Position numbers and translations under genes: made by a program. A model generated the notes under the pieces. That model was not told where the DNA came from, ran no database searches, and was given only the letters and a program-made list of their open reading frames with translations. This document shows, piece by piece, positions 24,501 through 30,500 of a DNA stretch of 64,000 bases (its first letter is position 1; each line of letters starts with the position of its first letter). The DNA comes from Amphibalanus amphitrite (taxonomy: Eukaryota > Arthropoda > Thecostraca > Balanomorpha > Balanidae): the NCBI RefSeq assembly GCF_019059575.1, contig NW_024883093.1:74544-138543 (forward strand), in the 5' to 3' direction.

Positions 24501-27500
24501 AATCCCCGTTCAAAATTATACGTTTTATCAATATGTACCAAGTATGACCCCATTGAGCTACCTCTAAATATAAATATATTTTGATAAAATTTCATACAGA
24601 TCATTTTTTCGTGAGGTAGAATATGCCTACCCGTCCCGGTCAAAATTAAAAAAGTCGAAATTAAGTGCCACCCTACTGTTAAAGCGTTTTGATAACTGCT
24701 AATGTGTGGGAGGATCAGGCCCCTCAGTCGTTTGGCCCCTGATTGAGCTAGAGCTTCACGAAAAGTGCGAGCGTATTGCTCGTGCCGGGAAGAGGCCGAT
24801 GTTGCGTAGTTATATGGTCCAACTCTATTTACTGAGCCTGTCCCGTAGCTCAGTTGGTAGAGCGTTGGACTCCGCGTGGTAAGAGCACGCGTCCCGGTTA
24901 CAAAAACCCGGGTTCGAAGCACGACGGGCGCTTGACGTTTATGAGCCTCCTGACAGATATGGCTGCGGTTGGTGGCAAGCCGTAGCCAGACGAAGTTAGT
25001 GAGGGGGCCAGCTGTGCGCGGCTATGTGCTCATGTTAAACTTTTGACTTCAAATTCTGTTATAGAACCGGAATTGCGCGATCGGAGGGTAGAGGGCAGGG
25101 TCACCACAACAAGCTTCGCTTAGCGTGGGCTCTGTCCTTGTGAATCATTCCAATCAAAAGATTTGTACTTAAGTTACAACAAACATAGCTTGTAGGTCAC
25201 CGGCTGACTTCCACGTCATGTCAGTGACCCGAATATCAGTGAAACGCTTGTAAAAGTGTAGCCGTGCAGCCATCCAGGCCTGTCCCGACTCGCTCTCTCG
25301 CGCTGCTTGGAGCGAGCTCGACCCCCCCCCCCCCGCGCGGCCGCCCGCCGGTGACGTCACGGCCCCTCCGGCGAGGTCAGGTCAGGTCAGGTCGCCGCCC
25401 TGCGCCGGAGCTAACCGGCGTGGTTCAGAGATGGACGGGGGTTGGTAGGAGCATGCTGCACTTCTGATGCGTGACATTATGAGTGACAGTTACAGACCAG
25501 CAGACTACGATCTACAAAGTACACAGGTAAGGAATTTGGGAGTGTCTCAGTTAAGTACTTCGGATGTATGTCAGGTAAGAAATTTTCGAGCATAGTTCAA
25601 TGCTCTATTTAAGATTGGAACAACTTTTTGTATTATTGATGCAGGTGTCAAAGTTTCTTGCTAAAGATCTTTCTCACGTTTTCAGAAGCAGCTTGGAGCA
25701 AAAGAAGAAGCAGCCAACACCTTCGACTGGTAAGTTCAGCTATCTTCATGTGATGCTTATCCAGTGCGATAGCATATTGATAGCTAGCGCATTACACATG
25801 CTTACATTTTGACCCTAGTCTATTTAAATATAGGCACTTGCACCATTTGCATATGAAGTATACCACTAGCACTAAACCGATAAAAATCTTCATTATTGTT
25901 GCTTGATAGCAATTTTTTACCATTTAAGGGTGCAGACCAATGTGAATAGTCACTAGGCCGAAATTGCGGTCTGGCATCACTTTACCACCCCAGTCCAAGC
26001 TAATCGCTCTGATGTTGGCGCACATACCCGGGTATTTTGGTCATCGTTACGCCCATCCACATTAATTACCAGTAGCTGACCTCATGGGCCGCGTTATAAG
26101 CGTCTCGCAGCAGAGCGGGGGGAGGCGAGGGGGCGATAGACCCGTCAGAGACCGCCCTTGGCAATGGCAATGATCGGCGGATCGGCCACCGGGGGGGGGG
26201 GGGGGCAGGGGTGTGAGTGACGGGGGAGGGGGCGTCACCGACGGGCCCCCACCCCACGTGAGGGCGTGGGGTCAGCCAACATCCACATGAGCGCAGATGG
26301 GGGCGGGGAGGGAGGTGGGGAGGGGAGGGACAGACGAGACAGACGTGTTGCGTCACAACCGGTCAGGTCGGGTCAGGCCAATGACCCGGATAAATGGATT
26401 GGGACGAGCTGCTCCCACAGGCAAGCAAGCAAGCAAGGCAAGCAGGCATTTGAAACAGAAGCAAAATTCAGGAAAGTAAAAGGGGTGTGAAAATTCTCTC
26501 GTGTGCTGCCTTTTGCGCAATATTTGTATTGAACTTGTGTCAACGTGCGAGGTTGAAATGAATCTAGTTTCAGCTTTTTCATTTTCGGTGGGGCAGGATA
26601 TTATAAACTGCAGACATACCTACATGCTTCTGAGCTTTCATTTGATTCAGTGTTTATTCTGTCACTGACAACATTTCATTTCTATAGAAAGTTGATTGCA
26701 CATTTTTGCTCTATTTTTTCGATAATAATATGTTTGCGATTTATTCATTTTTATCTATTTTATTAATCAAAATTAATGTTACGGGCAGATTTGTATGTAC
26801 TTTCATAAAACACGATGTTACGGACAGATTTATATTACCCAGCTTCCATCACTATCTCTTCTGTTTTCCGCCCCACAGCTCCCAGACATTACCGTCTCTG
26901 TCTGCCACATCGGGTCACCGACCCGATCGCTGGCGGGAACAAAGTCGGGGGGGGGGGGGGTCGTCTGCGGGGAGGGAGGGGAGGAGACGAGGTGGCTGGC
27001 TGGCGGGCGGGGAAGGCATCGGGGAGGGGTAGGGGAGGACACTGTCCCGGGGCCAGGAAGGGATGCAGGGGCTGTGGAGAGGGGGGCAGTTGTTACAAAG
27101 CCGCGAGTTCAGTGCTGACAGCGAGGAAGCTCCTTAGCGAGCCTGAGATGCCGTTTGTGAACACGACATCAGGACTAATTCAACACCAGATCGGTTCTTG
27201 GGAGGTGGTTACTAAGCTTAACCCGCGCCCGGCTGGGGGTCCTGGATTTCCACGCCCTGCTGGGGGGGGGGGGGGGTGTTTGAACACCCCCCCCCCTTCT
27301 AACTCGGCTCCTGGGCCACGTAGCGATACGCGGAAGGCGGCGTTCGAAAGAGCGTCAACAATAATGAGGAAATCACTTCGGTCAATTTTTTGGTCAGGTC
27401 AAAGGTCAGGTCACCAGAGGTCATTGATGGCAAAATTTCGCCGATTTCCAGGTCGAATGTCGAAAATTTCCAAGAAGCCAACGCATAACACGGGAACCAA

Positions 27501-30500
27501 TAGAGCTATAGCGCCGCGGAAAAGCGCATTCGATAGCCCTATTAACGCCCTTTCTGATTAACCCGCGCCCTGCTGGGGGGGGGGGGGTGTTTGAACACCC
27601 CCCCCTTGTGGTTTTTCGCGAATATCTCAAAAACGGCGGCGCGGAGCGCCGCCGTTTTTGGTACACCTTATCATACATCAATTCTACACATGTTGTGAAA
27701 CTTTCAGACCAAGGTCATTCAAGGTCAGGTCACCAGGTCACTTGAAGTGACCTCACCTCATAAAAAGTTTCAATGTCTGTCATAGCTACACCAAGTGACC
27801 GATTGCTTTGAAACTTTCAGCGATTGCTAAGAGCAATAGCATGTACAAAATGTATATCTCAGAATTTTGATATCGATGACCTAAGGTCAGGTCAATTTTG
27901 CGACCTCCCCATTATAAGTCAATGGGAGAAAATTGAAATGCGCCTCTTTTGGACGAAAGACATTATAAACACTCCCAAACACCGAATTACAAGTGGTTTA
28001 GACACATTGAACATGAAAATGGTGTCCGTGACCCTTGTTTGTGCCCTGAGGTCATCTTAGGTCACGAATGGTATCTAACAGTTTTTCGCAAATAACTTTT
28101 GATAGAGGCATGCTACAGCGATGAAAACGCCTTATATGTGTTCAGCTCGACGATACGGATCGACTGATATGCAACATGACCCTTTCCGGTCAGGTCATGA
28201 CCTTGACCTGAGGTCAAATTTTCAAGTTGACCTTTCAAGGTCAAGTTATAGTTCATTCGATGCGTCTTGACGAGAGGAACACGATGCCGGTAAAAGTAAG
28301 CTCGTACAAGGCTTGGGTCAAAAGTTACTGCAGAAAAACGGTTTCCGAAAAAAAATCGGCTATTTTTGCAGTTTTTGCCCCCTGCAGGCAAAACCGTTGA
28401 CGTTAGGTCAAATCTGAGAGAATTACTCAGAAAGGGCGTTAATAGGGCTATCGAATGCACTTTTCCCCGGCGCTGTAGCTCTATTGGTTCCCGAGTTATG
28501 CGCTAGCTTCTTGGAAATTTTCGACATTCGACCTGGAAATCGGCGAAATTTTGCCTTCAATGACCTCTGGTGACCTGACCTTTGACCTGACCAAAAAATT
28601 GACCGAAGTGATTTCGTCATTATTTTTTACGCTCTTTCGAACGCCGCCTTCCGCGTATCGCTACGTGGCCCAGGAGCCGAGTTACAAGGGGGGGTGTTCA
28701 AACACCCCCCCCCCCAGCAGGGCGTGGAAATCCAGGACCCCCAGCGGGGCGCGGGTTAATCCTCTCAGATTTGACCTAACGTCAACGGTTTTGCCTGCAG
28801 GGGGCAAAAACTACAAAAATAGCCGATTTTTTTTCGGAAACAGTTTTTCTGCAATAACTTTTGATCCAAGCCTTGTACGAGCTTACTTTTACCGGCATCG
28901 TGTTCCTCTCGTCAAGACGTATCGAATGAACTATAATTTGACCTTGAAAGGTCAACTTGAAAATTTGACCTCAGGTCAAGGTCATGACCTGACCTGAAAG
29001 GGTCATGTTGCATATCAGTCGATCTGTATCGTCGAGCTGAACACATCTAAGGCGTTTTCATCGCTCTAGCATGCCTCTATCAAAAGTTATTTGCGAAAAA
29101 CTGTTAGATACTATTCGTGACCTAAGATGACCTCAGGGCATAAACAGGGGTCACGGACACCATTTTCATGTTCAGTGTGTCTAAACCACTTGCCTAATTC
29201 AGTGTTTGGGAGTGTTTATAATGTCTTTCGTCCAAAAGAGGCGCATTTCAATTTTCTCCCATTGACTTATAATGAGGAGGTCGCAAAATTGACCTTACCT
29301 TAGGTCATCGATATCAAAATTCTGAGATATAAATTTTGTACATGCTATTGCTCTTAGAAATCGCTGAAAGTTTCAAAGCGATCGGTCACTCGGTGTAGCT
29401 ATGACAGACATTGAAACTTTTTATGAGGTGAGGTCACTTCAAGTGACCTGGTGACCTGACCTTGAATGACCTTGGTCTGAAATTTTCACAACATGTGTAG
29501 AATTGATGTATGATAAGATGTACCAAAAACGGCGGCGCTCCGCGCCGCCGTTTTTTGAGATATTCGCGAAAAACCACAAGGGGGGTGTTCAAACACCCCC
29601 CAGCAGGGCGCGGGTTAAACGAGCGCCAGGTCACTTCTTGGGAGAAAGGCCTGATCCGGCCAGAGGTGTCATGCTCCAGAAAGATAATCAAGTTGGAGAA
29701 GTGTGACCAAATCTGATTTGTGCGGAGAAGCTGTAACTCAGTGATAATGACACATTATATTTCTTTGGTCATGGTTTGACTCAAATAAATATTCTATCTC
29801 CTTAAATTCATTTGATTTACAAGAGATTTACAAGAGATACAAGATTTACAAGAAAGTCAGCAAAATTACTAATCGAATCAAATCAGGACTAACCCCGCAC
29901 ATTTAATTAAACAAAAAATTTGATGCCAGAGGTCAATCGATTTGACGTCGATTCGATTTATTGCAATGGTAAATGCATACCTGTCTTAGACGTTAATGTG
30001 ATCAATTGACCTGAATAGTTGAATCTTTTCAAACCTCTTCTCTGCAGAGATGTGTAGAGACGACTAATAAATTTCTGTCAGTGTCACCTCTCGGAATCTG
30101 ACCCCCTGTGACAGTGGCGGCTGTTATATAACATTCATGGGAGGGGTGAAATTCACCCCTGATAGATCGGTTCTATTTTCGAGGATAGTTAACAGGCTGT
30201 TTGCCGCGTGGAGAGTGTATCACCGGCCTTGCTAGAAAAATGGCAAAACCACATTGCAAAAAAAAACCTGTAGAACTGAATTGTTGTACGATTCCTTTTT
30301 TTAAGAACGACCTTTGCATGGTTACTGGCTGCTCAAAAGCACTGAGCCACTAAGCATATCATAAAGGACAGGAGGCAGTGAGGCACCCGTGTTTTGATTT
30401 TCAAATTATTAATCTCATTTACATTCATGCTGCTCGTAGTGACACTGTGCCTGGGATATTTATATATTTTCATAAAATGACTACAATCTGCCTTATATTT

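Follow-up and report, generated by a model that had tools for sequence, protein, structure and literature searches.

The stretch of DNA analysed here (the window), 64,000 bp of contig NW_024883093.1 of Amphibalanus amphitrite, harbors nine complete TTAA-flanked elements, designated A to I, as well as two older pieces, J and K, and one of the complete copies, D, lies within another, C. We consider it very probable that the elements are non-autonomous piggyBac transposons of a distinct clade, referred to here as the G-hairpin clade, that they are mobilized in trans by a transposase of that clade, and that they nest at TTAA. The boundaries of the elements, the duplication of TTAA, the order of the two insertions, the architecture of the ends, and autonomous elements that share this architecture and carry open transposase frames were all observed. 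A family first defined from raw sequence is now tied to transposases that are encoded in its own genome by elements with ends of this type.

The nested pair and the TTAA target

The pair and its uninterrupted homologues are located as follows:

27218..27557, minus strand: long-end half of outer copy C, flanking TTAA at 27218-27221; 94-96% identical to B and D, inverted relative to D
27558..28759, plus strand: inner copy D including both TTAA (27558-27561, 28756-28759), short end first
28760..29618 (from 28756 including TTAA), minus strand: short-end half of outer copy C, flanking TTAA at 29615-29618
6101..7300, plus strand: copy B, uninterrupted homologue, 1,200 bp including both TTAA
35527..36706, minus strand: copy E, 83% subfamily, uninterrupted

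Without its flanking TTAA the inner copy measures 1,194 bp (27562-28755), and the outer copy, rejoined from 27222-27557 and 28760-29614 through a single TTAA, measures 1,195 bp and aligns without a gap at the junction against B, D and E. The earlier sequence-only reading, which had described a copy inside a member of its own family, in opposite orientation and exactly at a TTAA, and had held that removal of the insert plus one TTAA restores a full outer copy, was thus borne out on both points, with exact coordinates. It had also stated that the junction matches the homologue at 6.1 kb, which is correct for length but not for the letters: B, D and E have ATTAC at the junction, and only C has ATTAA, a single C-to-A difference. 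Pairwise identities are 0.961 for B and C, 0.967 for B and D, and 0.969 for C and D. Since the target TTAA is a change private to C, the outer copy was probably in place, and already slightly diverged, when D arrived; the C-to-A change would have created an internal TTAA in the older copy, and a sister copy would have inserted there later in inverted orientation. The private substitutions counted with E as outgroup (19 in B, 16 in C and 12 in D per 1,173 columns) agree with a younger age for D than for C, though this is not a strong test.

Near-identical inverted copies lying side by side are a typical place for mis-assembly, and one could suppose that the pair arose by inverted duplication, or from a join made in the assembly, and that no insertion took place. 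This seems to us barely credible, because C and D differ at 3% of positions and each has its own private changes, precisely a TTAA stands at either side of the insert, the halves restore a full-length copy, and neighbors sharing a TTAA recur. A 241-bp probe over the left junction spanned both halves in the window only, the other 39 of the 40 places scored (among 1,491 first-look candidates in a genome of 807,550,619 bp) matching one side, so that both halves plus insert do not recur across these places as one unit; such recurrence is what the sequence-only reading had named as speaking against nesting.

When B was used as the query, 3,914 first-look candidates were obtained, of which 40 were scored, and all 40 were full length at 97-100% identity. 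We inspected 20 of the 39 other scored places, which are the best-scoring ones, old copies not being represented among them. TTAA was present at both ends in 19 of the 20, the exception (L015) having ATAA at one tip; in another (L021) the hairpin is altered. In two of the 20 the copy shares a TTAA with its neighbor, which is a further copy at L013 and an F-type element at L028. The copy at L030 sits inside a tandem repeat, and the adjacent unit, which is empty, aligns through the junction with the two flanks of the copy put together and has one TTAA there; empty sites lacking one had been named beforehand as the contrary outcome. In the window, TTAA flanks all nine copies, and F and G abut on one common TTAA (12714-12717), a second insertion at the TTAA of another element. 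Target duplication at TTAA is thus supported for the family. The nested case had been put forward as proof of it, and the boundaries and the duplication do hold, but taken alone it is a less clean and weaker proof than claimed because the uninterrupted homologues have no TTAA at the junction, and the better proof is provided by the genome copies and the empty tandem-repeat site.

End architecture and the transposase clade

Besides B to E, the complete elements of the window are:

4181..5364, plus strand: copy A, 65% subfamily of B, right half 73% identical to autonomous L069
11835..12717, plus strand: element F, separate family, without GGTCA arrays, TTAA at 12714-12717 in common with G
12714..13663, minus strand: element G, internal-deletion derivative of L063/L077, 79% identical at both ends
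45353..46281, plus strand: element H, of a type also seen nested within autonomous C778
49662..50261, minus strand: element I, 600 bp, without GGTCA arrays

All nine are asymmetric, with one short end and one long end. The short end consists of a CCC tip followed by a box and a G-run palindrome, and the box is repeated deeper in the long end. The offset of the repeat, taken as the best interior match of the short-end box (shuffled long ends equalled its score in 0-3.8% of 500), is 27 in seven elements, 26 in E and 28 in F, and so falls within 26-28 in all nine; B, C and D are near copies, which leaves seven lineages among the nine, and A, B/C/D and E are related. The center of the short-end palindrome lies 24.5-31.5 bp from the tip in seven of the nine, and its arms reach at least 7 pairs in seven of the nine. 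CCC was found at all 18 tips, continued as CCCT at both tips of F and G and at one tip of A, as CCCG in B to E and H, and as CCCA and CCCG in I. The tips of Trichoplusia ni piggyBac are CCC as well. We also observed, at a distance of about 70 bp from the short tip, a GC palindrome whose center in B (6167-6199) has the opposite orientation to that in C, D and E (29524-29555, 27628-27660 and 36611-36643), as if this center had been flipped by way of a hairpin.

In T. ni piggyBac, bp 34-63 of the right end (RE) are nearly identical to bp 7-35 of the left end (LE), and a dimer of the cysteine-rich domain (CRD) sits on a palindrome at LE bp 17-33, centered near bp 25 (Chen et al. 2020, PMC7351741). 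The end geometry of the window elements is the same as that published for piggyBac, while the letters differ. The puzzling asymmetry of piggyBac ends is thus a rule to which families adhere even after diverging widely in their letters. The criterion of asymmetric ends was taken from T. ni piggyBac and is not claimed for all members of the superfamily.

None of the nine window elements has a stop-to-stop frame above 129 codons, and Pfam gave no transposase in 20 open reading frames (ORFs) of the window, two of which contain a reverse transcriptase. In the genome, the search for PF13843 (DDE_Tnp_1_7) yielded 116 matches (232 first-look candidates, 116 scored), all listed ones above the cut-off. 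We inspected 45 transposase loci (L033-L077), and L078 and L079 were added to extend two of them. Five carry G-hairpin ends:

L063 and L077: 3,975 and 3,971 bp, mutually 99% identical, offset 27
L069: 4,723 bp, open transposase frame of 666 amino acids, CCCGCGCCC long end, G-hairpin, duplicated box, offset 27
C702: 5,973 bp including a nested 995-bp element, offset 27
C778: about 6.6 kb, one tip damaged, enclosing a nested H-type element, offset 25 as cut and 27 after correction of a two-base tip shift

These five form one clade, on a 100/100 branch of a 26-protein tree (proteins of 26 of the 45 loci, near-duplicates and a few others being omitted; a long-branch warning applies and includes L069 and L065). 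With the L069 protein as phmmer query, the other four members scored 303-409 bits and the next protein 62. The open frames of L063, L069 and L077 match PF13843 at 8.5e-70, 1e-59 and 2.4e-69, respectively, and the L069 transposase aligns to that of T. ni piggyBac (6x67) at 1.3e-56 over residues 137-664, including the blocks of conserved aspartates, which we take to be the catalytic ones, and the C-terminal cysteines. By the nearest-match rule, none of the 21 other loci with two TTAACC ends has G-hairpins; the 21 amount to about eight families, and in L054, L066 and L076 the two ends match poorly. Since the further 19 loci have no resolved ends, G-hairpins may also occur in other clades. At L052, two G-hairpin-type ends enclose a piggyBac of another clade (CCCATTAGTGCC ends, 604-amino-acid frame), which looks as though it were nested in a G-hairpin element.

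G matches both ends of L077 (1-400 and 3617-3971) at 79% with the gene missing, and is a deletion derivative. Copies A to E align to both ends of L069 at 58-73% (B with 1-732 at 61% and with 4032-4723 at 65%, A with the latter at 73%), and the short-end box of L069 resembles that of D at 13 of 15 positions by eye, with a different hairpin. They are thus relatives of an L069-like element. The sequence-only reading had called for an autonomous piggyBac with the ends of the B family; the kind exists in L069, L063/L077, C702 and C778, but a parent with the exact hairpin TGTTTGAACA was not found among the loci inspected.

One may ask whether another TTAA-targeting superfamily, Kolobok or Sola3, moves these elements, the resemblance to piggyBac being convergence. 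The target of Sola3 is TTAA, and B to E have CCCG instead of CCCT. Kolobok likewise generates TTAA duplications, but its termini are described as 5'-RR/YY-3' (PMC9587614), which the CCC/GGG ends do not match, and piggyBac transposases lie inside elements with the same kind of ends, of one of which G is a deletion derivative. The derivation of G and the transposase clade largely refute movement by Kolobok or Sola3, which we regard as highly improbable. The assignment to piggyBac, originally suggested from TTAA and the CCC/GGG tips, is now supported beyond these letters by the box geometry and by the same-type ends on transposase-bearing elements.

Several points weigh against the assignment. 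The short-end palindromes of A and I have no arm above 3 pairs when scored as palindromes. The fourth base of B to E is G, outside the piggyBac terminal motif CC[C/T]T (PMC2872659), and none of the common piggyBac tips given in PMC10813416 (CACTA, CCCTC, CCCTT, CCCAT) equals their CCCGC. Within the clade itself, the short tip of L069 is CCTT rather than CCC (its long tip is CCC), the ends of 19 of the 45 transposase loci are not resolved, and no inspected locus is an autonomous copy with the B-family hairpin. Furthermore, mobilization is read from sequence, no movement having been observed.

Under the piggyBac assignment, the clade transposase would be supplied in trans by the full elements elsewhere in the genome and would move the B family. 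At each tip it would recognize the box that follows the CCC, together with the G-rich palindrome; the latter, a putative site of its CRD, corresponds to the 19-bp palindrome on which the CRD dimer of piggyBac sits. On the long end, the second box about 27 bp deeper would also be recognized, and cutting would be followed by insertion at TTAA.

GGTCA arrays

Copies A to E also carry dense arrays of GGTCA, exemplified by D:

27713..27740, plus strand: short-end subterminal cluster, four inward sites 152-175 bp from the tip
28561..28604, minus strand: long-end subterminal cluster, six inward sites 152-191 bp from the tip
28177..28243, plus strand: conserved core with the AGGTCATGACCT palindrome

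B contains 28 GGTCA/TGACC (2.3 expected) and 21 AGGTCA (0.5 expected), and with 25 GGTCA/TGACC in A, 26 in C, 28 in D and 23 in E the five copies are about 10-fold above expectation; G has 12 (1.6 expected) and H 10 (1.9 expected). F and I have one each, which is the chance level, so that not every element with such ends requires the arrays. Some excess (166, 101.5 expected) is also present in the window outside the elements, and short GGTCA tandem runs were seen outside recognized elements at 25374-25393 and 26361-26386.

The words are conserved beyond their surroundings. Between B and A, at 65% identity, 20 of 28 are intact, whereas of the control words 15% are; when the motif mask was shifted circularly, the same identity was reached in 0 of 1,199 cases for B and A and in 1 of 1,179 for E and A. 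Relative to L069, A and B retain 12/16, 12/18 and 7/10 words (controls 13-21%). For G and L077 the test of constraint is a weak one, the number of sites being small, and shifts scored as high in 20/396, 34/355, 7/399 and 67/354 cases. Between B and E, 10 of 92 other 5-mers are retained as well as GGTCA; AGGTC, ACCTG and GTCAC overlap it, and GCGCC and ATATC do not. In A to E and G, inward sites occupy the interval 144-175 bp from the short tip, where H has none; at the long tip the interval is 150-204 bp, and H has them there as do A to E and G. A few outward ones are interspersed. The sites recur at the same subterminal places in L063, L069 and L077. The noncoding parts of these three hold 21, 39 and 22 GGTCA (4.5, 5.5 and 4.6 expected), and their frames 7, 3 and 7. 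The 21 elements of other clades have 0-6 (1.2-3.6 expected; in L037 and L038 the broken-gene part is counted as noncoding). As judged from the letters, the arrays are a cis-feature of elements of the G-hairpin clade.

This raises the question whether the arrays are an extra DNA-binding array for the clade transposase or an exploitation of host hormone-receptor proteins. The latter, by which they would be hijacked nuclear-receptor response elements rather than transposase sites, is compatible with piggyBac mobilization and is in our view a possibility, if the less probable one. The 20-21 AGGTCA half-sites per 1.2-kb copy, against about 0.5 expected, agree with it, as do direct repeats with a 4-bp spacer (DR4) of variable letters, of which B, C and D each have three (E is without the right one, A is without the left one and has an extra right one), and the AGGTCATGACCT palindrome, retained in all five of A to E. 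DR4 and inverted repeats without spacer (IR0) are thyroid-hormone-type arrangements (PMC4074170). On the other hand, the commonest repeat in B and E has a 5-bp period (GGTCAGGTCA), which is no classical spacing, and the arrays near the tips are mirror-symmetric and were seen with one transposase clade only, as expected of transposase sites. The grammar of the sites favors host nuclear receptors, whereas mirror symmetry and restriction to the clade favor binding by the transposase, and the arrays may act for the transposition complex or for a host factor on which it draws. It is conceivable, if rather doubtful, that conserved AGGTCA arrays at both ends couple the transposition or expression of the clade to nuclear-receptor signaling of the host, and that ready-made DR4 and palindromic response elements have been spread over an 800-Mb genome by its many non-autonomous copies.

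The middle of the family (28077-28343; D 520-786) also matches the sister copies in inverted orientation, at about 61-62% over 270 bp, and the inverted self-match at these positions forms an imperfect palindrome around the conserved core. RNA folding z-scores of the interiors, from 24 shuffles each, were -5.8 for B, -3.5 for E, -3.3 for A, -4.3 for I, -0.7 for F, +1.5 for G and -0.5 for H, with three control stretches at -1.1 to -1.8. We do not claim an RNA function: the low values of B, E and A are read as a by-product of the inverted GGTCA arrays, a reading that does not account for I.

Other features of the window and comparison with known systems

Two older pieces were also recognized:

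9293..11057, minus strand: element J, an old copy with interruptions in which no short end was found; pieces 62-71% identical to B/D
13664..13837, minus strand: element K, older, short end (tentative) with TTAACCCTCGCC end and short matches to G

The other flank of K resembles A (K 325-518 and A 433-621, 61%), and the F and G pair probably sits inside K, a tentative placement. On the plus strand, 31354-34719 is the long frame of a non-LTR (long terminal repeat) retrotransposon with endonuclease and reverse transcriptase, whose N-terminal part contains GIESNPGP, presumably a 2A-like peptide. The sequence TTAACCATACATGCG is repeated at 56964 and 57387, 423 bp apart, with identical upstream bases. 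Rfam (gathering threshold) and ARAGORN gave no matches.

Nested non-autonomous piggyBac elements at TTAA are of an already known kind. Among the matches listed in the open-access literature, by titles and the starts of abstracts, we found no description of a clade that combines G-hairpin ends and conserved GGTCA arrays, although absence is thereby tested weakly, and the end strings as a text query returned no transposon paper among the matches listed. Viral contigs gave 0 matches to the end pattern and 0 to the core, and the genome contigs scanned for the core gave 0.

The closest system is T. ni piggyBac (LE35/RE63; PDB 6x67, 6x68), which has the same TTAA target, a core-bound motif and a palindrome at both ends, and a second copy of the motif 27-28 bp deeper on the long end (PMC7351741, PMC11707139). 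Unlike it, the clade described here has a G-run/C-run palindrome with a family-specific center, subterminal GGTCA arrays, and longer autonomous elements (4-6.6 kb, two with nested inserts). The piggyBat of Myotis lucifugus, whose transposase (9c0f) matches that of L069 at 4.8e-21, shares a repeated subterminal motif and a palindrome, but of its own palindrome there are three copies on the left end and none on the right, and its motif is GCGGGA (PMC11707139). Among non-autonomous elements, the coral piggyBac miniature inverted-repeat transposable elements (CMITE) are likewise TTAA-flanked families with a conserved interior that insert at TTAA between repeats; they are about 100 bp long with 13-14 bp terminal inverted repeats of the CC[C/T]T type (PMC2872659), whereas the elements of the window measure 600-1,200 bp and have asymmetric ends. 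Finally, Alu DR2 elements provide a precedent for a transposable element spreading AGGTCA-type response elements; Alu is a retroposon whose DR2 arose from CpG decay (PMC1785376), whereas here dense conserved arrays are carried by a DNA transposon and its autonomous relatives.

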